Both the position numbers and the translations under genes were made by a program. 22,602 nucleotides of DNA from a virus. Location of the stretch: IMG/VR virus record IMGVR_UViG_3300025280_002195, positions 1-22,602 of that record; one strand, given 5' to 3'. Shown in pieces: positions 5,050-19,230 of the stretch (position 1 is its first letter; each line of letters opens with the position of its first letter). The notes under the pieces were generated by a model. The model did no database searches and was not told where the DNA came from. It was given only the letters and a program-made list of their open reading frames with translations.

Positions 5050-6739
5050 AGATGGTGTAACTACTTTTGCAAAAGCATTTGATGTGTTAGCACAAGGATT
5101 GCAAACTTATCAGCATATACGGATGGGAAGTTTCTGGGAATTTTTAAGAGATGTATGGTCTCAGGGATTTGATCATCCAGAATATTTTCAAGCGTGGCAT
5201 ATCGGAATTTTAGCAGAAGATATTGAAAAAGCTTTGGAAGAGGGTAAACATTATGTTGCAGTATTGCCTCGCTTTCATTTTAAATCGACTATATTGGGTC
5301 ATGCATTTAGTATTTGGCAAATATTACGATCAACCAGAAATTGTTCTATTTTATATTTATCATACAGTGATGGAATGGCTAAATACCATATTAATGAGAT
5401 TAATAAAACGATTGCGAGAAATTTTACATTAAAGGAGATGTTTGTAAGTAAAAATCCAAAAGCGGATTTTTCTTTTAGATATACCGTAAATAATAAGCCA
5501 GTAGAGATTATGCATGGGGGTCTTTTTTCATTTAAAAGAGGTATGCACGTTAATGGCGCTTTAATTGCGGATGACGTATTACGTGATCCAGAAAATCCGT
5601 TGAATCCTGCGCAGCTTACTAAAGTTGAAGATCATTTTTTAACAGAGAGTTTGTTTATTCCATTAAAAGATGTACCAATAATAGTACTGGGAACTCCTAT
5701 GATGCCCGGTGATTTATTAACAAAATTACAACATGATGAGAGATTTAATAGTAGGGTTCTTCCCGCTCTTGATCCTACACCGACTCGTAGGGTACTTATG
5801 CCGGAATTATATAGTGAGAAGTGGTTATTACAACAGAAAGAAGCTAGACCTAAGTCATTTGCTTCAGAGTTTATGTTGATTCCGCATTTTTCAACGGAAT
5901 CATATTTTGAAGCTGAGGATATAGAGAAGTGTGAAGATAAGACTTTAAGAAACTTACCTGCAACAAAGGCTTATGAACCTGATGGACATGAAGATATTTT
6001 TGCTGGGTTTGATGTGGGAAAGAAAAGACACCCATCGCATTTAGTTATCTTTAGGCAAGTAGGATCAAAAGTTGAACAGCTACATCAATCATGGTTAGAT
6101 GGCTGGTCTTATACTGATCAGATTGAATATTTGAATGAGGTTGCAAAAAATTTTAACATTTTAAGGGGGTATATTGATAATACAAGAGGTGAACTAGAAG
6201 ATAGGGGTTTAGCCAAGTCGTGGTATCCTATACATTTCACAACGAAGTCTAAAAATACTATGGCACAGATTTTTGAACAGTATGTTCATTCAGGAAATTT
6301 GGCTTTACTTAAAGATGAAAGACAAAGACAACAGATTTTATCGGTAAATAATGAATTAAAAGCTCCAGAAACACCTTTGGGACATGGAGATGCATTCTTT
6401 TCGATTGCTATGGCTCTTCAAGCTGTTTATGAAACCAGTAATGGTAAATATGTATCACTAGGAAGTTTAACTGATTGGCAAGCAGCACTTTCTCCAGATA
6501 CAGAGACTAATGAAAAAGCTATAAATATATCCATTGCGGATAATGTACGTCGAAAAGCGACAGTGGCAGAAAACGCAGACGTAGAAACTTCAAGATTTAC
6601 TTTATCTTGGTTTGCTAATGATAGTAACGAAGAGGTTCAAGCTCCGAATCCCCATTGTGAAGAGGCAGTATGTATGGAGTCGTTTTGGGTTCCAGAACGA
6701 GGTTTATGTCTATATTGTGGATACAGAAGAAAGAATTAA
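5039..6739 (+). CDS. terL: Terminase large subunit with a C-terminal Cys4 motif
   Basis: This 566-residue packaging motor has an N-terminal ATPase and a C-terminal nuclease. The ATPase shows an atypical Walker A, LPRFHFKST at 76-84, Walker B ALIADD at 174-179, and a coupling motif VLGTPM at 217-221. The RNase H-like nuclease has acidic residues in GFDVGKK (D325), GYIDNTRG (D380) and GHGDAFFS (D451). Unusual is the tail: C540, C545, C557 and C560 at the extreme end (HCEEAVC and LCLYCG) form a zinc-ribbon-like set after a polar linker of about 60 residues. The protein pumps concatemeric DNA into the prohead through the portal and cuts it. The portal gene is 4.3 kb downstream rather than adjacent. 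Confidence 0.93.
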   Translation: MAIKDGVTTFAKAFDVLAQGLQTYQHIRMGSFWEFLRDVWSQGFDHPEYFQAWHIGILAEDIEKALEEGKHYVAVLPRFHFKSTILGHAFSIWQILRSTRNCSILYLSYSDGMAKYHINEINKTIARNFTLKEMFVSKNPKADFSFRYTVNNKPVEIMHGGLFSFKRGMHVNGALIADDVLRDPENPLNPAQLTKVEDHFLTESLFIPLKDVPIIVLGTPMMPGDLLTKLQHDERFNSRVLPALDPTPTRRVLMPELYSEKWLLQQKEARPKSFASEFMLIPHFSTESYFEAEDIEKCEDKTLRNLPATKAYEPDGHEDIFAGFDVGKKRHPSHLVIFRQVGSKVEQLHQSWLDGWSYTDQIEYLNEVAKNFNILRGYIDNTRGELEDRGLAKSWYPIHFTTKSKNTMAQIFEQYVHSGNLALLKDERQRQQILSVNNELKAPETPLGHGDAFFSIAMALQAVYETSNGKYVSLGSLTDWQAALSPDTETNEKAINISIADNVRRKATVAENADVETSRFTLSWFANDSNEEVQAPNPHCEEAVCMESFWVPERGLCLYCGYRRKN

Positions 6740-6763
6740 ATATAATATTGGGGAGGAATATCA

Positions 6764-8650
6764 ATGATCACGGCGCAAGAACTTTTAGTTAAGTCCAATC
6801 CTGTTAGTATGCTATCAGAACAAGCGAAAATAGTATTGGGACACAGGTATTTTTTGAAGAATCAAGATAATACTATTATTGAAGATGGGGATGAACTTTT
6901 TAGGAGAGTCGCAAAAGCAATTTCTGTTATAGATATTGAGTATTATGCGTTGTCGGTTGAAGCAGAACTGTTAGAAAACGACTTTTTTACTATGATGAGT
7001 AAGTTAGAATTTCTTCCTAATTCACCAACATTAATGAATGCTGGAACAGAACAGGGCACATTATCGGCATGTTTTGTTTTGCCCTTGGACGATTCTATGC
7101 AAGATATTATGAAGGCTGCAACCGACACAGCTATGGTTCAGAAATTTGGGGGTGGTACTGGCTTCGCTTTGTCTCAGATTCGACCTCGTGGAGATAAGAT
7201 AAAGACAACTCATGGCATGGCTTGTGGCCCTATAGAGGTATTAAAAACCCTGTCACGAGTATCTTCCATGATTACACAAGGGGGAAAAAGAGATGGGGCA
7301 AATATGGCGGTCATGTCGGTTTATCATCCCGACATTCTTAATTTTATTAGTTGTAAGTCTGTTGAAGGTGAAATTCATAATTTCAATATTTCCGTGGGCG
7401 TGGACTCAAGGTGGATGGACTATGTATTAACTAATAGTGAGTATCCGTTAATTAATCCTGCTACTAAGGAACTAGTTGGGTATTTAAATGCACGAGAAGT
7501 TTTTAACACTATAGTAGCTGGTGCATGGAAAAACGGTGAACCGGGTATGATTTTCTTAGATCAAGTTAATAAAGATAATCATGTTATTGATACTTATGGA
7601 GAAATGCTTGCTACAAATCCTTGTGGTGAACAACCTTTGTTAGGTAATGAGTCTTGTAATTTAGGGTCTCTAAATTTGGCTAAATTCTTTGAGCCTGAAC
7701 CAATAAGTGGTGCATGGTATAATAAAATCAACTGGCGGACATTAGAAAAGGTAACTAGATTAGCAACACACTTTTTGGATAATGTAATTGATGCTAATTA
7801 TTATGCTACCCCTGATATTGAGGAGATGACTAAGGCTACTCGTAAGATTGGTCTTGGTGTTATGGGCTTTGCTGATTTACTTATTCAGATGAAGATTCCA
7901 TATGACTCAGAGTTAGCACGAAAAGTTGGGCAGCGTGTAATGAAAGATATTAGAAAATGGTCTGATAATGAATCCTTAAAATTAGGAGTATTACGAGGAA
8001 CATTTCCTGCATGGAACAATAGTAATTATGATAAAATAACTGAAGCTTTTAGGAATCATTGTCGTTTGACAGTTGCTCCTACTGGAACTATTTCTATGAT
8101 TGCTGATACTTCTAGCGGTATCGAGCCTACTTTTGCTTTGGCCTGGCAAAAGCAAAATATTCTCGAAGGTAAAACCTTGACTTATGTGAATAAGTATTTT
8201 GAAGTGGATGCTAGAAATTACGGTTTTTATTCTGAGGAATTAATGGGTTATCTAGCTGAAGGAGGTTCTCTCCAAGAGCGTAAAGATGTTCCTCAATGGA
8301 TTAAGAAGGTTTATGTTACGGCCCCCGAGATTTCTCCTAGTAATCATGTTTTGATGCAAGCAGCATTTCAGGAGTCTGTCGATTCAGGGATATCTAAAAC
8401 AATTAATTTTGCAAATAGTGCGACTCATAAAGATGTTGAGGATGCATATATGTTAGCGTGGACTACAGGATGTAAAGGCATTACTGTTTACAGGGCTGGT
8501 AGTAGAGATAAGGAAGTCTTAGTTAAAGGTAATCGTGATTCTATTTCTAATAAGATAGAGGAAGCTTGTTGTGAAAATCCGTACATTGTTATGGAATCTG
8601 GATGCCAAGTATGTAAGACTTGTGGATGGAGCGCATGTTTAGTAGCTTAA
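6764..8650 (+). CDS. nrdJ: Class II (adenosylcobalamin-dependent) ribonucleoside-diphosphate reductase
   Basis: This 628-residue enzyme converts ribonucleotides to deoxyribonucleotides. Recognisable features are NSPTLMNAG at 86-94, the redox Cys in LSACF (C103), the active-site NPCGE at 285-289 (thiyl radical C287, E289) and the partner C298 in NESCNLGSLN. The 11-residue spacing between C287 and C298 matches class II enzymes. APTGTISMIADTS is at 438-450, and a C-terminal Cys cluster C614, C617, C620, C625 passes electrons to the active site. That tail is typical of B12-dependent NrdJ, and no small subunit gene (nrdB) lies nearby. The redoxin at 10396-10638 is a plausible electron donor. GGGGAGG at 6749-6755 is the ribosome site. 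Class I is unlikely but not wholly excluded without alignment. Confidence 0.9.
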   Translation: MITAQELLVKSNPVSMLSEQAKIVLGHRYFLKNQDNTIIEDGDELFRRVAKAISVIDIEYYALSVEAELLENDFFTMMSKLEFLPNSPTLMNAGTEQGTLSACFVLPLDDSMQDIMKAATDTAMVQKFGGGTGFALSQIRPRGDKIKTTHGMACGPIEVLKTLSRVSSMITQGGKRDGANMAVMSVYHPDILNFISCKSVEGEIHNFNISVGVDSRWMDYVLTNSEYPLINPATKELVGYLNAREVFNTIVAGAWKNGEPGMIFLDQVNKDNHVIDTYGEMLATNPCGEQPLLGNESCNLGSLNLAKFFEPEPISGAWYNKINWRTLEKVTRLATHFLDNVIDANYYATPDIEEMTKATRKIGLGVMGFADLLIQMKIPYDSELARKVGQRVMKDIRKWSDNESLKLGVLRGTFPAWNNSNYDKITEAFRNHCRLTVAPTGTISMIADTSSGIEPTFALAWQKQNILEGKTLTYVNKYFEVDARNYGFYSEELMGYLAEGGSLQERKDVPQWIKKVYVTAPEISPSNHVLMQAAFQESVDSGISKTINFANSATHKDVEDAYMLAWTTGCKGITVYRAGSRDKEVLVKGNRDSISNKIEEACCENPYIVMESGCQVCKTCGWSACLVA

Positions 8651-8651
8651 T

Positions 8652-8661
8652 ATAGTATAAT
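8652..8661 (+). promoter_or_regulatory. ATAGTATAAT element, candidate promoter for the 8706 gene
   Basis: This is an exact copy of a ten-base motif found four times in intergenic gaps. It contains a perfect -10 hexamer TATAAT at 8656-8661, placing a start site near 8668, 23 bases before the TAGGAGG ribosome site. There is no clear -35 box. It lies in the 55-base gap after nrdJ. Confidence 0.5.
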
Positions 8662-8672
8662 ATATTAGAGGC

Positions 8673-8684
8673 TGTATCTATACA
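8673..8684. promoter_or_regulatory. Short palindrome TGTATCTATACA (operator-like)
   Basis: A perfect 5+5 base inverted repeat with a two-base centre lies about 12 bases downstream of the candidate -10 hexamer and before the ribosome site of the membrane-protein gene. Its position would suit a repressor site, but such short palindromes arise by chance in AT-rich DNA. Confidence 0.2.
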
Positions 8685-8705
8685 ACTAGCTAGGAGGTAA
8701 AAATT

Positions 8706-10004
8706 ATGCGTAAATGGCTTCAGAAGTTGTTTAATTGGAAAGCTATAGCAACAGGTTTGCGAAGAACTGTAGGTACTTTATCCTTGCTTATAGGTCTTGT
8801 AGTTTTAGTAGCGGTCTTTTTTAACCCTATGCCTTTAGTGGCTCCATTATTTCCCCTCTATATAGAAGGGTGGTTGTATATTGATCAGACTTATGTTCAG
8901 AATTTACTTACTATTCTTTGGACACAGTTAGTGATTTCTGTTAGCATCTCTTCTGTAGTCCTATTATTGGGAGTGATAACACTTAGGAAAGGCTTCAAAA
9001 CAGGCATCTTAGCGTTTTGGCGAGGTTTAAAAACTTCCCCAAGAGCGACGTTGGAAGCACCAGTACGTATATACCGTAGGATTAATATTTGGCGTGATTG
9101 GCTCCTAGCAAAAATAGATTATCTGCAAACAGAAAGTATGAAGTGGAAACGAACTTTCCAAGTGATGAAGAGTCCCTACAGTTTGTTAAGGGCCATGGGG
9201 TTTAGTCCACAAATGGCGGTGGGTCTTTTGTTTGCTGGTTCAGCGGTTGGGGGTGGTGTCGTGGTAAACGAAACAGTGTTTTCTGAAAGGTCGTTTACCC
9301 GTGGAGATAGTGGTATTTATGCGGCATCGGTTATAGGAGAAAATGCTAACTTAGACATTCCTACATCCTACATTGAAGGGTCAAACACGTTAAGGATCGA
9401 CTTAGGTAGTACACCTGTTCGGGAAATTACCATAGAGAATGTGTCGGTAGGTACGGTTTTCACAGGGTCTGCATTACCATCTGGAGAGGCCAATGTGGTG
9501 CAGGTATCGGGTAATGTCGTGTCTGGTGGAACAAACACACGGCTTGAAGTAGGACATTTTATACTTGAAAATTCTCGTTGTAAAAAGTTAACTCTTACTG
9601 ATATACAGGCTCATACTCTTATAGTGCGTGGAAATGCTAGTGATGGTCAAAGTTTGGCCCCATCACCCGGAACTTCTAGAATGAGGGCCATAGGAGGGGG
9701 GCATCAACAGGCCGATGCAATGGTCACTAATGGTGGCACTTATGACCGTATCTGGATACAGGCTCCTGCAAGCGGTGTTAATGGTAAAATAGGTACTTTA
9801 AAACTGTCTAATTTATACACAAAGGGTGGTGATTGTGTCATCTCAAAAATGAATGTGGGAACTATGGAGATTGTCTTAAACGAGATAGGTATGGGTAATG
9901 GATTTGCAACTAAAGAATTTACGATTGCAACAAGTGTCACGGCTGCTAATATAACAATGGAAGACAATGTTGAAGTAACTATAGCTGAACCTGCAACATC
10001 ATAA
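8706..10004 (+). CDS. Membrane-anchored protein with beta-rich C-terminal domain, unknown function
   Basis: The product has 432 residues. Two strong transmembrane segments lie at about residues 22-41 (LSLLIGLVVLVAVFF) and 67-92 (QLVISVSISSVVLLLGV). A basic, Trp-rich stretch follows to about residue 165, then a third, Gly-rich hydrophobic segment (GLLFAGSAVGGGVVV). From about residue 190 to the end the sequence is Thr/Ser/Gly/Val-rich with regular short strands, resembling a beta-helix or carbohydrate-contacting domain. Basic residues between membrane segments two and three suggest that loop faces the cytoplasm. I do not recognise the family. It lies between nrdJ and a nuclease gene with its own candidate promoter. 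Superinfection exclusion, a host-surface function or a virion component are all possible; none can be chosen from sequence. Confidence 0.7.
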   Translation: MRKWLQKLFNWKAIATGLRRTVGTLSLLIGLVVLVAVFFNPMPLVAPLFPLYIEGWLYIDQTYVQNLLTILWTQLVISVSISSVVLLLGVITLRKGFKTGILAFWRGLKTSPRATLEAPVRIYRRINIWRDWLLAKIDYLQTESMKWKRTFQVMKSPYSLLRAMGFSPQMAVGLLFAGSAVGGGVVVNETVFSERSFTRGDSGIYAASVIGENANLDIPTSYIEGSNTLRIDLGSTPVREITIENVSVGTVFTGSALPSGEANVVQVSGNVVSGGTNTRLEVGHFILENSRCKKLTLTDIQAHTLIVRGNASDGQSLAPSPGTSRMRAIGGGHQQADAMVTNGGTYDRIWIQAPASGVNGKIGTLKLSNLYTKGGDCVISKMNVGTMEIVLNEIGMGNGFATKEFTIATSVTAANITMEDNVEVTIAEPATS

Positions 10005-10011
10005 GGAAACC

Positions 10012-10392
10012 ATGTTCGAGTACAGAAGTAATTTGATAAAAATTATAGATGGTGATACAATAGATGTAGACCTTGATCTGGGTTTTGCAGTTATCTTAAA
10101 GAAACAACGGATTCGCCTTTACGGAATTAATACTCCAGAGTCAAGGACACGAGACTTAGAAGAAAAACGATATGGATTAGCAGCGAAAGCAAGATTAAGA
10201 GAATTGTTAGAAGATGCGGATACGATTACAGTTAAAACAGCAATTGATAAAAAAGCGAGAGGAAAATATGGTCGTATCTTAGGCACGATTTATGCTGATG
10301 ATATTAATGTTAATGAAAAATTGCTTGAAGAAGGTCATGCAATTGAGTATTTTGGAGGAAAGAAACAAACTAATAAATGGTGGAGGGAGTAA
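10012..10392 (+). CDS. Thermonuclease (SNase)-fold nuclease
   Basis: This 126-residue protein has the staphylococcal nuclease OB-fold. DGDTIDVD carries the calcium ligands (D13, D15), RIRLYGINTPE carries R35 and E43, and GKYGR carries R88. These match the catalytic Arg, Glu, Arg arrangement of the family. The usual second Asp (VDTPE) is Asn here (N40). There is no signal peptide, so it would act in the cytoplasm. Length is close to the catalytic core, with no extra domains. The start follows the previous stop closely, with AAGGA overlapping the stop codon as ribosome site. Possible roles are host DNA breakdown to feed the nucleotide pool (with NrdJ) or DNA repair. Confidence 0.85.
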   Translation: MFEYRSNLIKIIDGDTIDVDLDLGFAVILKKQRIRLYGINTPESRTRDLEEKRYGLAAKARLRELLEDADTITVKTAIDKKARGKYGRILGTIYADDINVNEKLLEEGHAIEYFGGKKQTNKWWRE

Positions 10393-10395
10393 ATT

Positions 10396-10638
10396 ATGGC
10401 AGCAGTAACGGTATATACATCATTTGGTTGAGGCCCATGCATAATGGCCAAGTCTTGGTTAAATAAAAATAATGTATCTTTCACAGAAAAAAATGTTGGA
10501 CAAGCAGGTGTAATAGATGAATTAATGGCGTTAGGATATCACGGAAGTACTCCAGTGATTATGGTAGACGAAACAGTAATAGTTGGATATAGTCCAAGTA
10601 AATTATCGGAAGTGTTAAAGATAAAGGCAAGTTTTTAG
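10396..10638 (+). CDS. Glutaredoxin/NrdH-like redoxin, probable selenoprotein (in-frame TGA at 10429-10431)
   Basis: Read through TGA, this is an 80-residue redoxin. It opens with MAAVTVYTSFG, then the TGA codon, then GPC, giving U-G-P-C (U12, C15) where the family has C-G-P-C. The rest fits the glutaredoxin/NrdH fold: helix IMAKSWLNKNN, strand VSFTEKNV, helix DELMALGY, the cis-Pro loop STPVIMVD (P53), and VIVGYSPSKLSEVL. GGAGGGAG at 10382-10389 places ribosomes on the ATG at 10396; stopping at TGA would yield just 11 residues. The next ATG (10444) has no ribosome site and would delete the first strand and the first catalytic residue. Other genes use TGG for Trp and TGA as stop, so wholesale recoding is unlikely. 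Sec at a redox Cys position is known in bacterial redoxins. It probably reduces NrdJ. A TGT/TGC to TGA error or a broken gene is the main alternative. Confidence 0.82.
10446..10460 (+). promoter_or_regulatory. Candidate bacterial SECIS hairpin following the redoxin TGA
   Basis: Six bases at 10446-10451 (GGCCAA) pair with 10455-10460 (TTGGTT): four Watson-Crick pairs nearest the loop, two G-U pairs below. The three-base loop is GUC (10452-10454). The loop starts 21 bases after the TGA, inside the roughly 16-37 base range described for bacterial SECIS elements, and begins with G-U, as in the SelB-contacting loop of E. coli fdhF. The stem is short. A competing pairing of GGCC at 10432-10435 with GGCC at 10446-10449 exists. 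Confidence 0.5.
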
Positions 10639-10653
10639 ATAGGAGGAAATTAG

Positions 10654-11079
10654 ATGACACTAGGAAATATTTTAAGAGAACGAGATGTACAGTATACAGC
10701 ACTTAAAGATGAGGTTACCAATACATGGAGAATTTTAAACACATGGCATGATGAGTTGAAGAACTTAAGTCCTGATGACGACATTCCTGATGATAGTAAA
10801 GCAGTAACAATCTTAACTGAAGGAGGGTTTTTAGCGTTGATTCGAGAGGCGGCACGATTAGGAGTGTTAGATAACGTGTCTTTTACTGATAGTACAGGGG
10901 AGGGATATGAAGAAGAGCGTCAAGAAATGCAGGATAAAATAGTAAAATATGAAAAAGAGGTGGCTTCATTACAAGTTCGTCATAATGAAAGTGAATCCTT
11001 TAGATTGAAAGAAAAGGCGTTAGGAGCGATTCTTAAATTAGCAGCTATGTCCGATGCGACCTTATTGAGTGAGGAATAA
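10654..11079 (+). CDS. Unknown protein with a C-terminal coiled coil, upstream of portal
   Basis: The product has 141 residues, with a strong AGGAGG site at 10642-10647. The N-terminal 50 residues are helical and polar, followed by an acidic loop (SPDDDIPDDS) and a helical stretch around FLALIREAARLGVL. Residues 88-118 (EEERQEMQDKIVKYEKEVAS and following) are a probable coiled coil. I recognise no family. It immediately precedes the portal gene (two-base gap) and should be expressed with it. A structural or assembly-accessory role is position-based inference. Confidence 0.62.
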   Translation: MTLGNILRERDVQYTALKDEVTNTWRILNTWHDELKNLSPDDDIPDDSKAVTILTEGGFLALIREAARLGVLDNVSFTDSTGEGYEEERQEMQDKIVKYEKEVASLQVRHNESESFRLKEKALGAILKLAAMSDATLLSEE

Positions 11080-11081
11080 AT

Positions 11082-12794
11082 ATGAAATTATCAGATTATC
11101 TACCTGAAGTTCCAGCATTTGCTCAACAAATGAGTGCTTTAAGTAATCAAATTAACCAGTTTCAGTTAATGAAAGCTGCTGGGGATACAGGACAAGCCCC
11201 AACAATTGGTCTAGACCATGTAGTTAATACATGGGTTCGTCATCAAATGGCGTATAGACAGCAATTGGTTATGGACTTACAGACTATTTGCATGACGGTA
11301 GAGGAAATACGCTCTCCATTAAGTCATATAACGAATGAAGTATTCAGGAGAGGCTTACAATGGAAACCTTTGATAGCCGATCCAGATGAAAGTCAACTAG
11401 AAGTTTTTAGTAAATTTCTAAAAGACTGTAATGTCTTTGATCAAAGTTTGGAAGAAGTTATGAGACAATTTCACTTTGATGTAAATTCTATAGATGATGG
11501 TTTTATATATCTTGCTAAAGAATATTATAGTTCTGGAGATGGTTTATTACGGTCTAAGGTTAAAGAGATTCGTAGACTGAACCCATCTTTGGTAGAATTT
11601 GACTTAGATGTTTCCGGTTTGCCTAAGAACGCTCATTTCCTTTGTCCTATACATAGAGAGCAAGTTAAAGATACGCCTCAAAGCTGTGATCAACACGGCT
11701 GTGTTAGACAATGTCAACCAGTTATGTATAAATACTATCATCGTAATCAACAAATTTATTTATTTGATTCTGAAGTAATCCATATGACTAAGTTCTCTCC
11801 TTCCGAAACGTATGGCTGGTCGCCAATATTAACAATCTTTGAAAAAGCACTAACGTTGATTGGAATGGATAAGAATCTTTATAGGTATTTCTTTGAGAGA
11901 AAGATGCCAGCTTCTATGGTTATGGTAACGACTGATGATCCTGAGAGTTTGAGAAGGGAACGAGCTAACATAGCGGCTCAGACACGGCTTGACCCTAACT
12001 ATATTCCTATGATTGCTGTTTCAGCTAGGAATCAGCGAGGTAGAGTAGATATGGTACGCCTCTTCCACACTCTACAAGAAATGGACTATCTACCAGTTAG
12101 GGAGGAAATTAGGGAAAGGGTTGCAGCTATGTGGGGAGTTACTCCTGCATGGCAAGGCGCACCAGATGCTTTTGGTGGGTTGTCTAGTCAAACACAGCAA
12201 CTAGTCGTTATGAGTCGTGTGGTTGAAGCAGATCAACGATTATTTCATGAAAAAGTATTTCCTGTTCTATTAGACGCTTTTGGAATTACAGATTGGGCCT
12301 TAGTTCTTCCTAATCCAGAGGAGAAGGCTGAAGCAACTAAAATTAGTTTTGCTCAACAGAAGGTTCAAGTTGCTAATGCGTTAGCTCAATTAGGATTTAC
12401 TATTACCTTAAAACAACAAGGAAGTGATTTAGGAGACGTAGATTTTTCTATAAGTGGTGAATATGTACCTACGGCTCAGATGCAAGGAGAACAAATGGGT
12501 ATGCAAATTGCACAACAAGAACAGCAATTCCAGATGCAACAGCAGCAACAGGAACAACAACAGCAGCAAATAGCGGCTGCTCAAGAGCAAGCTAATCAAA
12601 CAGGTGAACCTGTGGAGGTTGATGTTGGCGGTGGTGGCGAAGGCGGTGGTGGTGAAGCTGAGATACAGGCCATGCTTAAGGCTGATGATGATTCCCATAA
12701 CTCAGATAAACTTTCTGAATCTGAAAAGATGCGAAAACTTAGTGACGCCTTAATGCATGAGGAAATGTATCCTGATCAAGACGAGGAAGAATAA
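11082..12794 (+). CDS. Portal protein
   Basis: This 570-residue protein has the portal pattern: an N-terminal helical region with RSPLSHITNEVFRRG, the clip/stem region with EVIHMTKFSPSETYGWSPI (232-249), and the long helices IGMDKNLYRYFFERKMPASM and EEIRERVAAMWGVTP. The portal forms the dodecameric ring through which terminase pumps DNA and to which the neck binds. Unusual features are a Cys/His-rich insertion at about 188-211 (C188, H191, C202, C207, C211) that could bind zinc, and a low-complexity tail: Gln-rich at 475-505, Gly/Glu-rich at 515-525, then acidic. The stop shares a base with the next start (TAATG), which couples it to the giant fusion protein. Confidence 0.85.
   Translation: MKLSDYLPEVPAFAQQMSALSNQINQFQLMKAAGDTGQAPTIGLDHVVNTWVRHQMAYRQQLVMDLQTICMTVEEIRSPLSHITNEVFRRGLQWKPLIADPDESQLEVFSKFLKDCNVFDQSLEEVMRQFHFDVNSIDDGFIYLAKEYYSSGDGLLRSKVKEIRRLNPSLVEFDLDVSGLPKNAHFLCPIHREQVKDTPQSCDQHGCVRQCQPVMYKYYHRNQQIYLFDSEVIHMTKFSPSETYGWSPILTIFEKALTLIGMDKNLYRYFFERKMPASMVMVTTDDPESLRRERANIAAQTRLDPNYIPMIAVSARNQRGRVDMVRLFHTLQEMDYLPVREEIRERVAAMWGVTPAWQGAPDAFGGLSSQTQQLVVMSRVVEADQRLFHEKVFPVLLDAFGITDWALVLPNPEEKAEATKISFAQQKVQVANALAQLGFTITLKQQGSDLGDVDFSISGEYVPTAQMQGEQMGMQIAQQEQQFQMQQQQQEQQQQQIAAAQEQANQTGEPVEVDVGGGGEGGGGEAEIQAMLKADDDSHNSDKLSESEKMRKLSDALMHEEMYPDQDEEE
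12520..12575 (+). repeat. Gln-codon (CAA/CAG) low-complexity tract in the portal gene
   Basis: A run dominated by CAA and CAG codons with a few ATG and GAA codons encodes a Gln-rich segment of the portal C-terminal tail. It is a simple-sequence region that may vary in length between relatives. Confidence 0.6.
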
Positions 12795-15700
12795 TGACTA
12801 CTTTTAATGAGGAGGTAAGTGGAGAATATCAACAAGAAGAAAAACCAATTGTAACCATTACTGACGAGAGTCTACAACTTCCTAAAGATCAACGTTTATA
12901 TATTAATTCTAATGAGCTTCGTGACTATGCTGGAATGGGGTTGGCAATCTATGAAGGGCCAAGAAAAGGAGAGTATGTAGATAGAAGTTTATTGGATGAT
13001 AAAGGGAAACCTACAAAAGTGCCAATTGACTATGAGCAATATCATTATGTAGATACTCGTAGGCATTGGCTTAAACAGCATATCAACCAATATCCACCTA
13101 AAGCTACTGGGCCTCTTATATTTAGAAATCAAGAAACAGGAAGTATGGAGACTATTGACTTAGAGACGTTACATCCTGTTCCTAATCATACTCCTAATTT
13201 ATATCGGTATACTCAAGATGGTAAAGTAGTAGAGCTTCCTGCTGGTATCGCTCATTATGATAGTGAAGGTAATAAATTATCTCCCCATAAAGATGAACGT
13301 GATCGCCCTATTATTATTCAACAGACTCAAGCTCTTATTCTAAATGCTTATCGTGATCAGAAAGTACCTAACAATGCCACCAATGTGTTTGTGGCTGGAA
13401 ATGAAACTTCTGAAATACAAGCAATCTATCGGAATGTACAAGGAAAACAACAGGTAATCTTTTCTCCAGAAGAGGCTAAGAGAAGAAAAGATGTTCATTG
13501 GAAGAACCAACTTGAGGCTAGGAAAAGTGCAGATGACTTAATAGATACCTTATCTGCGGATATTGACAATATAGATACTTGGTCGGAAAATGATCAAGTT
13601 ATTTTATTAATTGGTCGGATGGGTTTTCGTCATGGAGGGGATACTATTAGTTTTCTTGCAGCCAATGAGGAAGAGCAAAAAAAGAATGGGGCAACAAGCC
13701 CTCAAAATACAGGAGAACGTACTGGAATAGGTGCATCATCCTTAATAGCTAAGGAAGTATCTATTCAAGACGATGGTTCCGTAAGGTTCCAGTTTTTAGG
13801 GAAGAGTAAAATTCCTCACGATCATGTATCAACTGATCCCTTAGTTAAACGAATTGTACAACAGGCGTTGCGTGGGAAACAGTCAGGAGAGCAACTCTTT
13901 CCAAGAGCTAACACGAAACAAAATCTAAATAGATTACGAAAACTTACTGGCAATAAGCGCATGGAAATAAAAGACATTAGAACTTATATTGGAACTTCTA
14001 TTGCTAGGGATTTAGTTAAACAAGAAATCGCTAATCGTGGAGGTAGGACTACGACTACGGAGGAGTTTAAGGAAGCATTAAAACGAATTTCTATAGAAGT
14101 AGGTAAAGCATTAGGACATAAAAGTGGGAGTAGAGATAAAGACACTGGAGAAATGATGTATGAAGATATAGGAACAACGGCTCTTAAGTATTATATTGAT
14201 CCTGTAGTTTGGCAAGATTTAGCTCCCGAAGGTACAGTCGAAAAACTTATGAAAATGGTAAAGAATTTACAGACTCTCTCTAAAACTCTTCCTCCAAATG
14301 CAATATACTCTTCAACTGAAGCCCCTCCTAAAGGAGCTATGACATTTGTAACAGAAGAGCGAGAAGCAGAGTATTGGTTACAACCTACAGAAGTCTTTCC
14401 TCAAACTCCAAATGTACAAGAGGTAATTGATGCTAATCCACAAGCACAACAGATTTTACAGGACTTAGGACAACAAGGAACACCGTATGTAGTAGGTGGT
14501 GGTGTACGAGATATTTTGCTAGGTAAACCTAGTAAAGATATAGATATTGAAATGCATGGAGTTCCTATGGATAAATTAGGCCAGCTTATGGAAAAACATG
14601 GGGGGAAATCAGAACAAGTAGGTAAACAGTTTGGAGTGTTTAAAGTGGGTGATGTAGATGTCTCATTACCTAGAACAGAGACTAAAACAGGGACTAAACA
14701 TACAGATTTTGATGTTCAAGTACATACATCATTGCCATTAAAACAAGCAGCACGTAGAAGGGACTTTACTATGAATGCTTTGATGTATGATGTAAAGAAT
14801 CATAAGGTCATAGACTTTTTTGGTGGGCATGATGATATCGTAGCTAAAAAAATTAAACATGTTGACGATAAAACCTTTGTAGAAGACCCATTGCGTGTTT
14901 ATAGAGCGGCACAATTTGCAGGAAGATTTGGTTTTTCAATTGATGATTCGACCAAAAAGTTAGCTCAGTCTATGGATTTATCAGATTTACCAAAAGAAAG
15001 AATTTTTGATGAGATGTCAAAACTGTTATTAAAATCTCCATCACCTTCGGTAGGTTTGCAAGCGTTAGAAGATATGGGAGTTTTTAATCAACAAATGACA
15101 GAATTAAAGGATTTACGAGATACAATACAACGAGATGATTTTCACGCTGAAGGAGATGTATTTACTCATACAAAAATGGTTATCGATGAAGCCGCACGAG
15201 TTAGTAAGCGATTTGAACGAGAAAAAGATCGACATATCATTATGTTATCTGCCTTACTCCATGATATAGGTAAGCCAGCGACTACTAATGAACGTGGTTT
15301 ATCGCATGGACATTCCGAAGCTGGCACGGAACCCGCGAGGCAATTTTTAGAGAGATTAACTACAGATAAAGAAATTATAGATACTGTTGTACAGATAGTA
15401 GAACTTCATTTAGTTCCATTACAGTACCATCATCAGAGAGAAGAACTAAAAGATTCCACTTTAAGAAGGATGATTAATAAACACGGAACGCATTTCCTTA
15501 ATCTACTATCAGCCGTTTCCGAAGCAGATGCTCTTGGTAGACGCCATAGACAACCTGATGGTAGTACAATAAAACCTACGAATGAGGCTAATGAATGGTT
15601 TAGAGCGAATATTAAACGAGTGTCTGAAGAAAGTGGTAGTACACCAGAAGGAAGAATTAAACCGTTAGTGACTGGTAATGACCTACTTGATTTAGGTTTT

Positions 15701-16294
15701 GTACAAGGCAGACGAATTGGGGAAGTACTACAAGATATTAAGAGACAGCAAGAAGAAGGTAAATTGACGGATAAGAAAGAAGCCCTTGATTATATTCAGG
15801 GTATCCATAAATCTTATGTCAGTGAATATTTCTTGAAGGCTAAAGGTAAATATAAGGGACGAACAGGTGGAATAACACCTGATTGGACAATGAAATTACC
15901 CGGTGAGGAAAGAGATATAGATGAATGGACAGAAGCTCGTAGAAAGAAAGCAGAGGAACGCCAGTGGGGAATTAAACCTGTAGGTGGACAGCCGATGGCT
16001 AAAACATGGATAGGTTCACTAGCTGATAAAGGATTTATATATCCGTTAATTAAGCAGGTTCTAGGTTCTCAGATGTGGTTTGCGCAAGATGGAATTGACT
16101 ATATAGCTAATTTAGGAACGAATGAAGATGAGTTAGTCACTTCTGTAGATAAAGCAATATTTACCTATAATAAACCTAGTGTATCTTATGCGCCTTCTGG
16201 ACGAAATAATCAGAATACAAAGAGGAAAAGTTCAGGTAAGCAAGGAGAGAGATATCAAGGAGATATTATAGACGATGAGGAGGACGATTATTAA
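12794..16294 (+). CDS. Giant fusion: type IB topoisomerase + CCA-adding enzyme-like nucleotidyltransferase + HD domain
   Basis: 1166 residues, three recognisable parts. (1) About 170-480, topoisomerase IB: ATNVFVAGNETSEIQAIYRN, GRMGFRHGG (R279), FLGKSKI (K337/K339), EIKDIRTY (R396), ALGHKSG (H442) and KYYIDP (nucleophile probably Y467; Y456 is an alternative). These correspond to the Arg-Lys-Arg-His-Tyr set. (2) About 560-780, class II nucleotidyltransferase of the CCA/poly(A) polymerase head type: VVGGGVRD, DIDIE (D582, D584), RRRDFTMNAL (654-663), DPLRVYRAAQFAGRF. (3) About 785-1000, an HD domain (HTKMV, LLHDIGKP with H823-D824, HGHSEAG) ending in PLVTGNDLLDLGF...GEVLQDI as in HD-type CCA enzymes. 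The last 160 residues are unassigned and end DDEEDDY; the first 170 are also unassigned. All catalytic residues appear intact. It is coupled to the portal by TAATG. Known families, but I know of no described protein with this order. Confidence 0.85.
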   Translation: MTTFNEEVSGEYQQEEKPIVTITDESLQLPKDQRLYINSNELRDYAGMGLAIYEGPRKGEYVDRSLLDDKGKPTKVPIDYEQYHYVDTRRHWLKQHINQYPPKATGPLIFRNQETGSMETIDLETLHPVPNHTPNLYRYTQDGKVVELPAGIAHYDSEGNKLSPHKDERDRPIIIQQTQALILNAYRDQKVPNNATNVFVAGNETSEIQAIYRNVQGKQQVIFSPEEAKRRKDVHWKNQLEARKSADDLIDTLSADIDNIDTWSENDQVILLIGRMGFRHGGDTISFLAANEEEQKKNGATSPQNTGERTGIGASSLIAKEVSIQDDGSVRFQFLGKSKIPHDHVSTDPLVKRIVQQALRGKQSGEQLFPRANTKQNLNRLRKLTGNKRMEIKDIRTYIGTSIARDLVKQEIANRGGRTTTTEEFKEALKRISIEVGKALGHKSGSRDKDTGEMMYEDIGTTALKYYIDPVVWQDLAPEGTVEKLMKMVKNLQTLSKTLPPNAIYSSTEAPPKGAMTFVTEEREAEYWLQPTEVFPQTPNVQEVIDANPQAQQILQDLGQQGTPYVVGGGVRDILLGKPSKDIDIEMHGVPMDKLGQLMEKHGGKSEQVGKQFGVFKVGDVDVSLPRTETKTGTKHTDFDVQVHTSLPLKQAARRRDFTMNALMYDVKNHKVIDFFGGHDDIVAKKIKHVDDKTFVEDPLRVYRAAQFAGRFGFSIDDSTKKLAQSMDLSDLPKERIFDEMSKLLLKSPSPSVGLQALEDMGVFNQQMTELKDLRDTIQRDDFHAEGDVFTHTKMVIDEAARVSKRFEREKDRHIIMLSALLHDIGKPATTNERGLSHGHSEAGTEPARQFLERLTTDKEIIDTVVQIVELHLVPLQYHHQREELKDSTLRRMINKHGTHFLNLLSAVSEADALGRRHRQPDGSTIKPTNEANEWFRANIKRVSEESGSTPEGRIKPLVTGNDLLDLGFVQGRRIGEVLQDIKRQQEEGKLTDKKEALDYIQGIHKSYVSEYFLKAKGKYKGRTGGITPDWTMKLPGEERDIDEWTEARRKKAEERQWGIKPVGGQPMAKTWIGSLADKGFIYPLIKQVLGSQMWFAQDGIDYIANLGTNEDELVTSVDKAIFTYNKPSVSYAPSGRNNQNTKRKSSGKQGERYQGDIIDDEEDDY

Positions 16295-17166: not shown

Positions 17167-17448
17167 GTGGCAAACTCATCGGTTATACTGTGTCCAAAAT
17201 GTAATGGGTGGATGGACGTTAATTTAGATCAGGATTTACATTGTATACAATGTGGAAAAGTTATTGTCTTACAGATAAGGAGGAAGTATGATTCCAGAAC
17301 AGGCAAAATTAGAGATAAAAAGAAAGAAGGCGACAGGACAGAGTTGGACGAGTATAGCACAGTGGCTAGAAAAAGAATACGGAATAGATATTCACCGCAC
17401 AACAATTCAGCGATGGCACGACAAGGAGGTTTATTCAAACGATCTTGA
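17167..17448 (+). CDS. Small zinc-ribbon protein (GTG start) overlapping the next gene
   Basis: The product has 93 residues. Two CxxC knuckles, LCPKCNG and HCIQCGK, are 15 residues apart and form a zinc ribbon in the first 32 residues; the remainder is strongly basic. It starts at GTG 17167, with AAGGAG at 17151-17156 ten bases upstream. The reading frame is the same as the preceding gene, separated by TGA CAG, so an extended readthrough product is conceivable. The last 161 bases overlap the metallophosphoesterase gene in another frame, an unusually long overlap here. The zinc-ribbon half is convincing; the basic tail may be a by-product of the overlapping gene. Confidence 0.6.
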   Translation: MANSSVILCPKCNGWMDVNLDQDLHCIQCGKVIVLQIRRKYDSRTGKIRDKKKEGDRTELDEYSTVARKRIRNRYSPHNNSAMARQGGLFKRS

Positions 17449-18631
17449 GTTCGATGATTTGGAAGATGATTACATAATGGATATGGAAGAGCGTATTAAA
17501 CTTGATAAGAAAGTTGCTACTCACAAAGCAGAAGCAGTATTCTTTAAGAAGTTATATGAAAATGTTATAAAGAATGAAGCTAAAAAAGAAATTATTATTG
17601 AGGCAATCAAAAATAATGCACCGGCATTTCCAGCGTTGACTTCTGTTCAAACAAGTCCAAAGAGTTCAGACTTATATAAAAAAAGAGGAAGTACGCCTCA
17701 AGTCGTAGTGGCTCCGTTAAACGATTTACATATAGGTGATAATGTAAATTTAGAACAGATGGCTGGTTTAAATAGCTATGATATTGATATCTTTAATAGA
17801 CGTTTATATGGGTGGGCAACGCAGTTATTAAAGCTTGTAGAGTTACGGAGAAACGTCGCCCCAATTGATGAACTAGTTATTCCTTTATTAGGTGATATGG
17901 TTAGTGGGGATATCCATGAGGAATTAGCCAGAACAAACATAGATAATTGTATGAACCAAATGATTAGGGGTGCAAATTTAATTGCACAAGCGATTATGTT
18001 TCTGGCTCCCCATTTTTCTAAAATTAGAATTCCTTGTGTGGTTGGTAATCATGGTAGAATGACACGTAAACCCCCAATGAAAGATAAGTATATGGATTGG
18101 GATTATATGGTTTATCAATGGGTTGCTGCCTATTTGCGAAATCAGAAACATATAACGTTTAGTATTCCTAAAGCTTTTCTTAATTCTTTTGAAGTAGGGA
18201 ATAGAAATATTTTGATTATGCATGGTGATTCTATTTCAGGGGCTGGAAGCACGATGGCTATTACTAGAGGCGTTACAGGATTAAGAGGCTTCCTTCAATA
18301 TAGGACAACTTTAGAAGATGCTGTGCTTACTTCTGATGCTATGCTAACCAGTAAATTTGATTCAGTGTTAATGGGCCATTTCCATCGTATAGAGGAAATA
18401 GATATTGGAACAGGGGCGATTCATATTTGCGGAACAATGAAAGGTGGAGATGAATTTGCTGCTCAGAGAATGCATTCAATTAGTAAGCCTAAGCAACTAG
18501 TTACTTATTGGCATCCTAAATACGGTAATGTAGGTAAAGAAGTTATTTATTTGAATAGATATGATACTTCTACTAATATGTTTAAGGATATAATACCGGA
18601 TTTATGGATTACTGGGGTTGAATATGATTGA
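17288..18631 (+). CDS. Metallophosphoesterase with N-terminal helix-turn-helix
   Basis: The product has 447 residues. Residues 1-48 are a helix-turn-helix (SWTSIAQWLEKEYGIDIHRT then TIQRWHDKE). A charged, probably coiled linker runs to about 135. The calcineurin-like phosphoesterase domain has every metal motif in order: NDLHIGD (D146, H148), LGDMVSGD (D203), VGNHGR (N254, H255), MHGD (H312, D314) and MGHFH (H364, H366). Such enzymes use two metal ions to cleave phosphodiesters or phosphomonoesters; phage members include DNA nucleases and protein or nucleotide phosphatases. The HTH suggests action on DNA, possibly at a specific site. AAGGAGG at 17279-17285 is three bases from this ATG, closer than usual, but no better in-frame start is near. 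The substrate is unknown. Confidence 0.85.
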   Translation: MIPEQAKLEIKRKKATGQSWTSIAQWLEKEYGIDIHRTTIQRWHDKEVYSNDLEFDDLEDDYIMDMEERIKLDKKVATHKAEAVFFKKLYENVIKNEAKKEIIIEAIKNNAPAFPALTSVQTSPKSSDLYKKRGSTPQVVVAPLNDLHIGDNVNLEQMAGLNSYDIDIFNRRLYGWATQLLKLVELRRNVAPIDELVIPLLGDMVSGDIHEELARTNIDNCMNQMIRGANLIAQAIMFLAPHFSKIRIPCVVGNHGRMTRKPPMKDKYMDWDYMVYQWVAAYLRNQKHITFSIPKAFLNSFEVGNRNILIMHGDSISGAGSTMAITRGVTGLRGFLQYRTTLEDAVLTSDAMLTSKFDSVLMGHFHRIEEIDIGTGAIHICGTMKGGDEFAAQRMHSISKPKQLVTYWHPKYGNVGKEVIYLNRYDTSTNMFKDIIPDLWITGVEYD

Positions 18632-18920
18632 AATTGTTGTACAAAAGATACCTTGGCCTTTTCCTAAGTATGTTCATGCTGTAACACTGTGGCCCTTTAT
18701 TTTTTATGAATGGGGGATTAAAGATGATCCAGCTATTCAAGCACATGAGAGATATCATTGGAATGATCAGAAGAAATGGTTGGTTGTGCCTTGGTTTATA
18801 GCGTATATATGTTTACTGCCTTTTTATGGAGGAAGTAGAAGACACCCAATGGAAAAACCAGCATACGAATTACAAGATAAAATTAATAGTTATAAGAAAG
18901 AAGAGAAGAGTTATGGTTGA
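18624..18920 (+). CDS. Small HExxH protein, possible zinc metallopeptidase
   Basis: The product is 98 residues from the ATG at 18624; a TTG two codons earlier is less likely. HERYH at residues 41-45 is an HExxH zinc site, and a Glu downstream in KPAYELQDKI (E82) could be the third ligand. A hydrophobic, Trp-rich stretch at 53-68 (LVVPWFIAYICLLPFY) may bury against or cross a membrane. Phages often carry small proteins in which an A-HE-x2-H motif is followed by a Trp-rich segment and an E-x-A/Y motif; their substrates are not established. It overlaps both neighbours by 8 bases, showing translational coupling. Confidence 0.6.
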   Translation: MIEIVVQKIPWPFPKYVHAVTLWPFIFYEWGIKDDPAIQAHERYHWNDQKKWLVVPWFIAYICLLPFYGGSRRHPMEKPAYELQDKINSYKKEEKSYG

Positions 18921-19230
18921 TATAGTTAATGTTACTCGTGAAGACGTTATTGAGGCATTGAAGGACGTTTATGACCCAGAGATACCTGTCAACGTAGTAG
19001 ACCTTGGCCTTATATACGAGGTTCATGTGACCCCTGAAAATTCTGTGTATGTTATGATGACCCTTACTGCCGCTGGCTGCGGCATGGGGCCATACATAGC
19101 CCAGCAAGCTGAGTGGCGCATAACTGAAGTGGAGGGTGTAGAGAATGTATATGTTGATATGGTTTTTGATCCTCCATGGAACCCAGGAAAGATTACTGAA
19201 GACGGAAAAATGCTGCTTGGTATTGATTAG
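18913..19230 (+). CDS. MIP18/SufT-type (DUF59) iron-sulfur assembly protein
   Basis: The product is 105 residues from the ATG at 18913, which overlaps the previous stop; the open frame extends further back but only through the preceding gene. The whole protein matches the DUF59/MIP18 family (PaaD, SufT, CIA2): DVYDPEIPVNVVDLGLIY at 18-35, MTLTAAGCGMGP at 49-60 with the conserved Cys (C56), EGVENVYVDMVFDPPW at 74-89. Members help deliver or mature Fe-S clusters in target proteins. The core (19040-19110) is visibly richer in G and C than its neighbours, suggesting recent acquisition from a host. In this phage the Cys-rich PD-(D/E)XK nuclease is a possible client. Family call firm, role inferred. 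Confidence 0.86.
   Translation: MVDIVNVTREDVIEALKDVYDPEIPVNVVDLGLIYEVHVTPENSVYVMMTLTAAGCGMGPYIAQQAEWRITEVEGVENVYVDMVFDPPWNPGKITEDGKMLLGID

Follow-up and report, generated by a model that had tools for sequence, protein, structure and literature searches.

A probable selenocysteine-containing redoxin encoded downstream of the class II ribonucleotide reductase gene in a large group of phages

The virus record IMGVR_UViG_3300025280_002195 of IMG/VR contains a short reading frame that is interrupted by an in-frame UGA and thus raises the question of whether a phage gene encodes a selenoprotein. The record was analysed as a window of 22.6 kb (22,602 nucleotides), which includes genes for recA, the large terminase, NrdJ, the portal protein, the major head protein and thyX. 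We consider it very probable, at about 0.93, that the product of the gene in question is a selenoprotein of the phage, namely a dithiol redoxin of the glutaredoxin/NrdH-like type with selenocysteine as its nucleophile and most likely with NrdJ as its client. The following features of the window are relevant.

6764-8650, plus strand: NrdJ, adenosylcobalamin-dependent class II ribonucleotide reductase, likely client of the redoxin (TIGR02504, 644 bits, cut-off 400)
10012-10392, plus strand: staphylococcal-nuclease-like gene directly upstream of the redoxin, present in close relatives only
10382-10389, plus strand: Shine-Dalgarno-like site GGAGGGAG; an AGGAG-like site is also found in most relatives
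10396-10638, plus strand: predicted selenocysteine-containing glutaredoxin/NrdH-like redoxin gene (80 aa, active site U-G-P-C)
10429-10431, plus strand: predicted selenocysteine codon UGA (codon 12), the only in-frame TGA of the redoxin frame
10445-10451, plus strand: 5' arm of the SECIS-type hairpin
10452-10454, plus strand: apical loop GUC with an invariant G
10455-10461, plus strand: 3' arm of the SECIS-type hairpin
11082-12794, plus strand: portal protein

The redoxin frame extends from the ATG at 10396 to the TAG at 10636-10638, and its codon 12 corresponds to the position of the first Cys of the CxxC motif in glutaredoxin-type redoxins. The coordinates agree with the original prediction of a ribosome site at 10382-10389 followed by a TGA at codon 12, and its claim of a complete redoxin behind the TGA is equally borne out, as the Pfam Glutaredoxin profile PF00462 covers the full length of the 80-residue readthrough product, MAAVTVYTSFG-U-GPCIMAKSWLNKNNVSFTEKNVGQAGVIDELMALGYHGSTPVIMVDETVIVGYSPSKLSEVLKIKASF, with 39.8 bits (gathering cut-off 22.9). 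Together with this score, the Grx fold of an AlphaFold2 model (pLDDT 88.6), in which residue 12 is located just before helix 1, places the protein in this family. The best match both by sequence and by structure is cGrx1 (PDB 7c10, TM 0.86), presumably the protein from Alkaliphilus (formerly Clostridium) oremlandii, followed in the structural comparison by the NrdH structures 4hs1 and 4fiw. With 51 bits against the NrdH redoxin model TIGR02194 (curated cut-off 85.75) and 39.5 bits against the Uxx-star selenoproteins NF041212 (curated cut-off 66), and with its resolving Cys15 present, the protein is a Sec glutaredoxin that is NrdH-like and lies outside of NrdH and Uxx-star by their curated cut-offs.

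On one contig, a single in-frame TGA of this kind could equally stem from a mistake in sequencing or assembly, or from the decay of a pseudogene that has acquired a premature stop. Such an origin is extremely improbable in light of the relatives. A second assembly, L002 (IMGVR_UViG_3300025293_000694), differs from window positions 6199-12543 at 1 of 6345 bases and is identical at the TGA. Searches with the portal, NrdJ and the redoxin alignment as queries provided over 200 loci, and a profile search of the related contigs yielded 44 distinct redoxin genes, whose codon 12 is TGA in 39 and TGT or TGC in 5, whereas TAA or TAG was found in none of the 44. The alignment of homologues proposed in the original prediction thus returned either TGA or Cys at this codon, and scattered stops or frameshifts were not found. 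The reading frame behind the TGA appears to be under purifying selection, as judged from pooled pN of 0.13 and pS of 0.39 (43 non-independent pairs), and 160 NrdJ and 176 portal alignments from the same contigs (336 in total, about 178,000 codons) contained no internal stop. The UGA hence aligns with the Cys of homologues in a frame that is conserved on both sides, which is a criterion for bacterial selenoprotein genes.

The redoxin-alignment search alone placed the TGA form on 54 contigs with about 29 metagenome identifiers, a number obtained from the contig names by manual counting. Judging from these identifiers, the phage family is probably mostly marine. A DNA pattern combining the TGA with the hairpin described below matched 41 contigs, every one of them already in the known set. 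The predicted Sec redoxin is a trait shared throughout a large group of phages, a point that the original prediction did not contain. In a scan for other conserved in-frame TGAs the redoxin formed the largest cluster, and those of the other clusters that were inspected turned out to represent conserved genes read in antisense or in a shifted frame. Since such frames also give rise to conserved TGAs, a conserved TGA by itself constitutes weak evidence and the weight is carried by the hairpin, the family and the codon tests.

Phages with reassigned stop codons exist (PMC9523058), and the UGA could in principle be read as another amino acid, either by a reassigned code (as Trp or Gly) or by an opal suppressor tRNA. 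We regard this as highly improbable. TGA ends 8 of the 29 ORFs of the window and Trp is encoded by TGG (119 codons), from which it follows that the window uses the standard code, as had been proposed from the same usage. In each of the nine Sec-bearing contigs that were examined, long ORFs likewise terminate at TGA, as does the redoxin gene itself in the relatives L149 and L165, and no tRNA with a UCA anticodon was detected on any locus searched. Moreover, the alternative residue at codon 12 is always Cys, and the UGA is linked to a conserved hairpin that is absent from the Cys relatives.

This hairpin carries much of the argument for selenocysteine. If the U of the UGA is numbered 1, the stem consists of the pairs 17-33, 18-32, 19-31, 20-30, 21-29, 22-28 and 23-27 enclosing a loop at 24-26, and since the alignment behind the UGA is gapless, column statistics can be obtained directly. 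In 32 Sec genes, 96.4% of stem cells are paired and the G at position 24 is invariant (32/32). An observed 6.75 pairs compare with 4.72 ± 0.19 (maximum 5.31) in 2000 synonymous-codon shuffles, which were weighted by the codon usage of the viruses and in which shared ancestry is retained. The outermost pair 17-33 is C-G in 15 genes, U-A in 14 and other in 3, and the three sequences from which it is missing all belong to one clade. Position 33 is the silent third base of a Leu codon (TTA/TTG) and tracks the second base of the codon located 16 nt upstream, a covariation for which protein coding does not account. Within the hairpin, Thr is encoded by ACC in 29 of 31 Sec genes (12% background) and Lys by AAG in 31 of 31 (34% background). 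The RNA 3' of the TGA, for which a check of this kind had been suggested at the outset, thus contains a SECIS-type hairpin with covariation and a codon bias beyond the needs of coding. In five relatives forming a second clade (L149, L181, L182, L184 and L201), a perfect 7-bp stem with a GUG loop is found three nucleotides further on, with 7.0 pairs compared to 4.34 after shuffling.

Bacterial SECIS elements are described by an apical loop of 3-9 nt, an upper stem of 4-16 bp, a G in the first two loop positions, a distance of 16-37 nt from the UGA and a minimum free energy that does not exceed -7.5 kcal/mol (PMC13188914). The 7-bp stem of the window, its loop GUC, which reads AGUCU if the last pair is open, and the distance of 20 nt between the UGA and this loop all fall within the ranges for loop, stem, loop G and spacing. 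The minimum free energy ranges from -6.7 to -7.0 kcal/mol in the window and, depending on the folded length, is -7.5 kcal/mol or lower in 19 to 32 of 39 relatives, which make up the majority at longer folding lengths. The hairpin of the window alone is weak (-4.7 kcal/mol), and the free RNA favours a competing stem (10432-10438/10444-10449), leaving the hairpin with a pair probability of about 0.05; a ribosome positioned at the UGA would cover nucleotides that this competing stem overlaps. The folding energy of the whole 60-nt region discriminates poorly (mean z of -0.85 for Sec genes), whereas the specific hairpin does discriminate. An Rfam search of the SECIS region gave no match.

The Cys relatives provide the counterpart to these observations. 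Their stem cells are paired to 54%, with 3.8 pairs, which is the level of their own shuffles, and they carry GCT-ACG-AAA or GCT-ACT-AAA in place of the usual ACC-AAG, while the encoded peptide is much like that of the Sec genes (ATKSWL in 4 of 5). From this comparison, the Cys relatives seem to have lost the hairpin largely through synonymous changes. In a protein tree, the Cys redoxins are nested among the Sec redoxins (support 84/70, three changes), suggesting that Sec is probably ancestral and Cys secondary in these phages, an assignment that is tentative given its 75 columns.

It could also be argued that the UGA is a genuine stop, preceded by a leader peptide and followed by a 64-residue product initiating at the ATG at 10444 that is present in the window. 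This start is poorly kept (11/32), a product made from it would be devoid of strand 1 and of both residues of the active site, and the upstream YTxxG and the U-G-P-C motif rank with the best conserved stretches of the redoxin, which leaves this proposal with hardly any credibility. If the gene encodes a selenoprotein, the same 64-aa stub would illustrate why standard phage annotation misses Sec genes, as gene calling stops at the UGA. With selenocysteine as the preferred reading, a ribosome reaching the UGA would encounter host SelB with Sec-tRNA(Sec) bound to the hairpin, which starts 13 nt behind the UGA, Sec would be inserted to generate the active site U12-G-P-C15 with selenocysteine as nucleophile, and translation would continue to the TAG.

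The genomic setting provides a hint towards the function of such a protein. As originally stated, a ribonucleotide reductase is encoded nearby, with the redoxin located downstream of the class II gene nrdJ. The conserved order is recA-terL-nrdJ-(0-2 genes)-redoxin-ORF141-portal, in which the redoxin is located downstream of nrdJ and on its strand in every relative that allowed both genes to be placed, and lies about 630-760 nt upstream of the portal in nearly every relative with redoxin and portal placed. Its position in this conserved module makes NrdJ the probable client. Small redoxins regenerate class II ribonucleotide reductases by reducing C-terminal cysteines of the enzyme, and the C-terminal end of the phage NrdJ reads CQVCKTCGWSACLVA. 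The redoxin would pass electrons to these C-terminal cysteines, with the selenol being faster than a thiol, and the re-reduction of NrdJ would support dNTP synthesis during infection. The redoxin also follows nrdJ in the 105-kb G039, a distinct virus lineage with identities of 37% in the portal and 50% in NrdJ, and it is carried by G051, where none of 15 other window proteins searched was matched.

A role as Sec donor for NrdJ requires the fewest assumptions and, provided that the protein is a selenoprotein, we consider it likely, although gene order is only suggestive with respect to the partner. The selenoprotein might instead serve another client, such as a phage or host peroxiredoxin, or act in general disulfide reduction, which we deem the less likely assignment but a serious one. 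Bacterial Sec glutaredoxins can serve other proteins, for example a selenoprotein MsrA, as indicated by the title of reference 85 in PMC13188914, and the redoxin scores below the NrdH cut-off. Moreover, among 110 non-redundant loci, the slot between nrdJ and portal contains the Sec form in 35, the Cys form in 7 and no redoxin in 68, which defines the redoxin as an accessory gene of a core module and implies that NrdJ can work without it. Next to the NrdJ gene of a Moorella phage, no redoxin is annotated. The invariable placement downstream of nrdJ on the same strand, which extends to the distant lineage G039, argues for NrdJ.

Other parts of the window display features of their own. Directly after the portal gene, 12794-16294 (plus strand) encodes an unusual fusion protein of 1166 residues, in which a topoisomerase IB catalytic core (309-446) is followed by a CCA-adding/poly(A) polymerase with an HD domain (565-1000). 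At 18826-19230 (plus strand), a MIP18/SufT-type iron-sulfur assembly protein (PF01883) adjoins thyX. Two sense-strand ORFs at 17167-17448 and 17288-18631 (plus strand) share 161 nt that are read in different frames; the product of the second ORF looks by eye like a helix-turn-helix combined with a calcineurin-like phosphoesterase and has no Pfam match.

A search of 51 phage records for tRNA-Sec gave no match above cut-off, and SelB was not detected on the 27 records searched for it. Although many contigs are fragments, the phages appear to be devoid of both, and we infer that the host must supply this machinery, which would comprise SelA, SelB, SelC and SelD. Weak tRNA-Sec matches on four contigs turned out to be tRNA-Tyr genes. 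tRNA-Tyr is the only tRNA found on related phage contigs, where it occurs as three sequence types in different phages (L207, L208 and L210), with genes of 88 nt ending in CCA. This long form of tRNA-Tyr is bacterial in type and, together with RecA, fits a bacterial host. The nearest isolate matches of the portal (11082-12794, plus strand) are haloarchaeal tailed viruses of the HVTV-1 group at about 27%; despite these, the tRNA, RecA and the type of SECIS point to bacteria. A portal-based genome scan gave one match, the contig L211 in a groundwater Daviesbacteria MAG (portal 61% identical), which carries an aldehyde dehydrogenase-like gene upstream of the terminase region. L211 lacks the redoxin, SelB above cut-off is absent from this MAG, and the contig, which is probably a misbinned phage, provides no evidence on the host.

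The redoxin shares properties with several known systems. Like the NrdH redoxins of bacteria and phages, it is a small protein of Grx fold tied to a ribonucleotide reductase, for which NrdH acts as electron donor; however, NrdH relies on Cys and is mainly a partner of class Ib enzymes, whereas the phage protein is predicted to contain Sec and is encoded with a class II NrdJ. The UXX-star (seleno)protein families are similarly glutaredoxin-like with Sec at the first position, but these proteins are without the second Cys, in contrast to the UxxC of the phage redoxin. The closest resemblance in motif is to the bacterial UxxC selenoprotein glutaredoxins, with the same fold and a hairpin just after the UGA, which have been described in the Sargasso Sea data set (PMC1088965) and are an experimentally supported family (PMC13188914). 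These are described as bacterial, whereas the present gene belongs to a module of phage genes that includes nrdJ and portal. Phages and viruses are unmentioned in the selenoproteome reviews PMC13188914 and PMC9312934 and in the Sargasso paper (PMC1088965), and the ten unattributed Sargasso sequences may include members of the phage kind. In the literature searched, outside of which most subscription papers and preprints fell, we found no phage-encoded selenoprotein, and the sole earlier link between phages and selenocysteine was the tRNA-Sec reported in Basilisk-like Bacillus phages (PMC6145125). The relation is reversed in the present case, since those phages are reported to carry a tRNA-Sec gene with no selenoprotein described, whereas here a predicted selenoprotein gene is found and a tRNA-Sec is not.

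Collectively, it appears somewhat more plausible than its opposite that a large and widespread phage family depends on the Sec machinery of its hosts and employs a SECIS-controlled Sec redoxin as dedicated donor for a B12-dependent NrdJ, with lineages that lost Sec having switched to Cys while their SECIS decayed. If true, the host range of this family would be tied to Sec-decoding bacteria, which predicts Sec decoding in its hosts. A selenoprotein that selection maintains in dozens of phage lineages would add the viruses of bacteria to the range of selenoproteins and would link phage nucleotide metabolism in the sea to selenium and vitamin B12.
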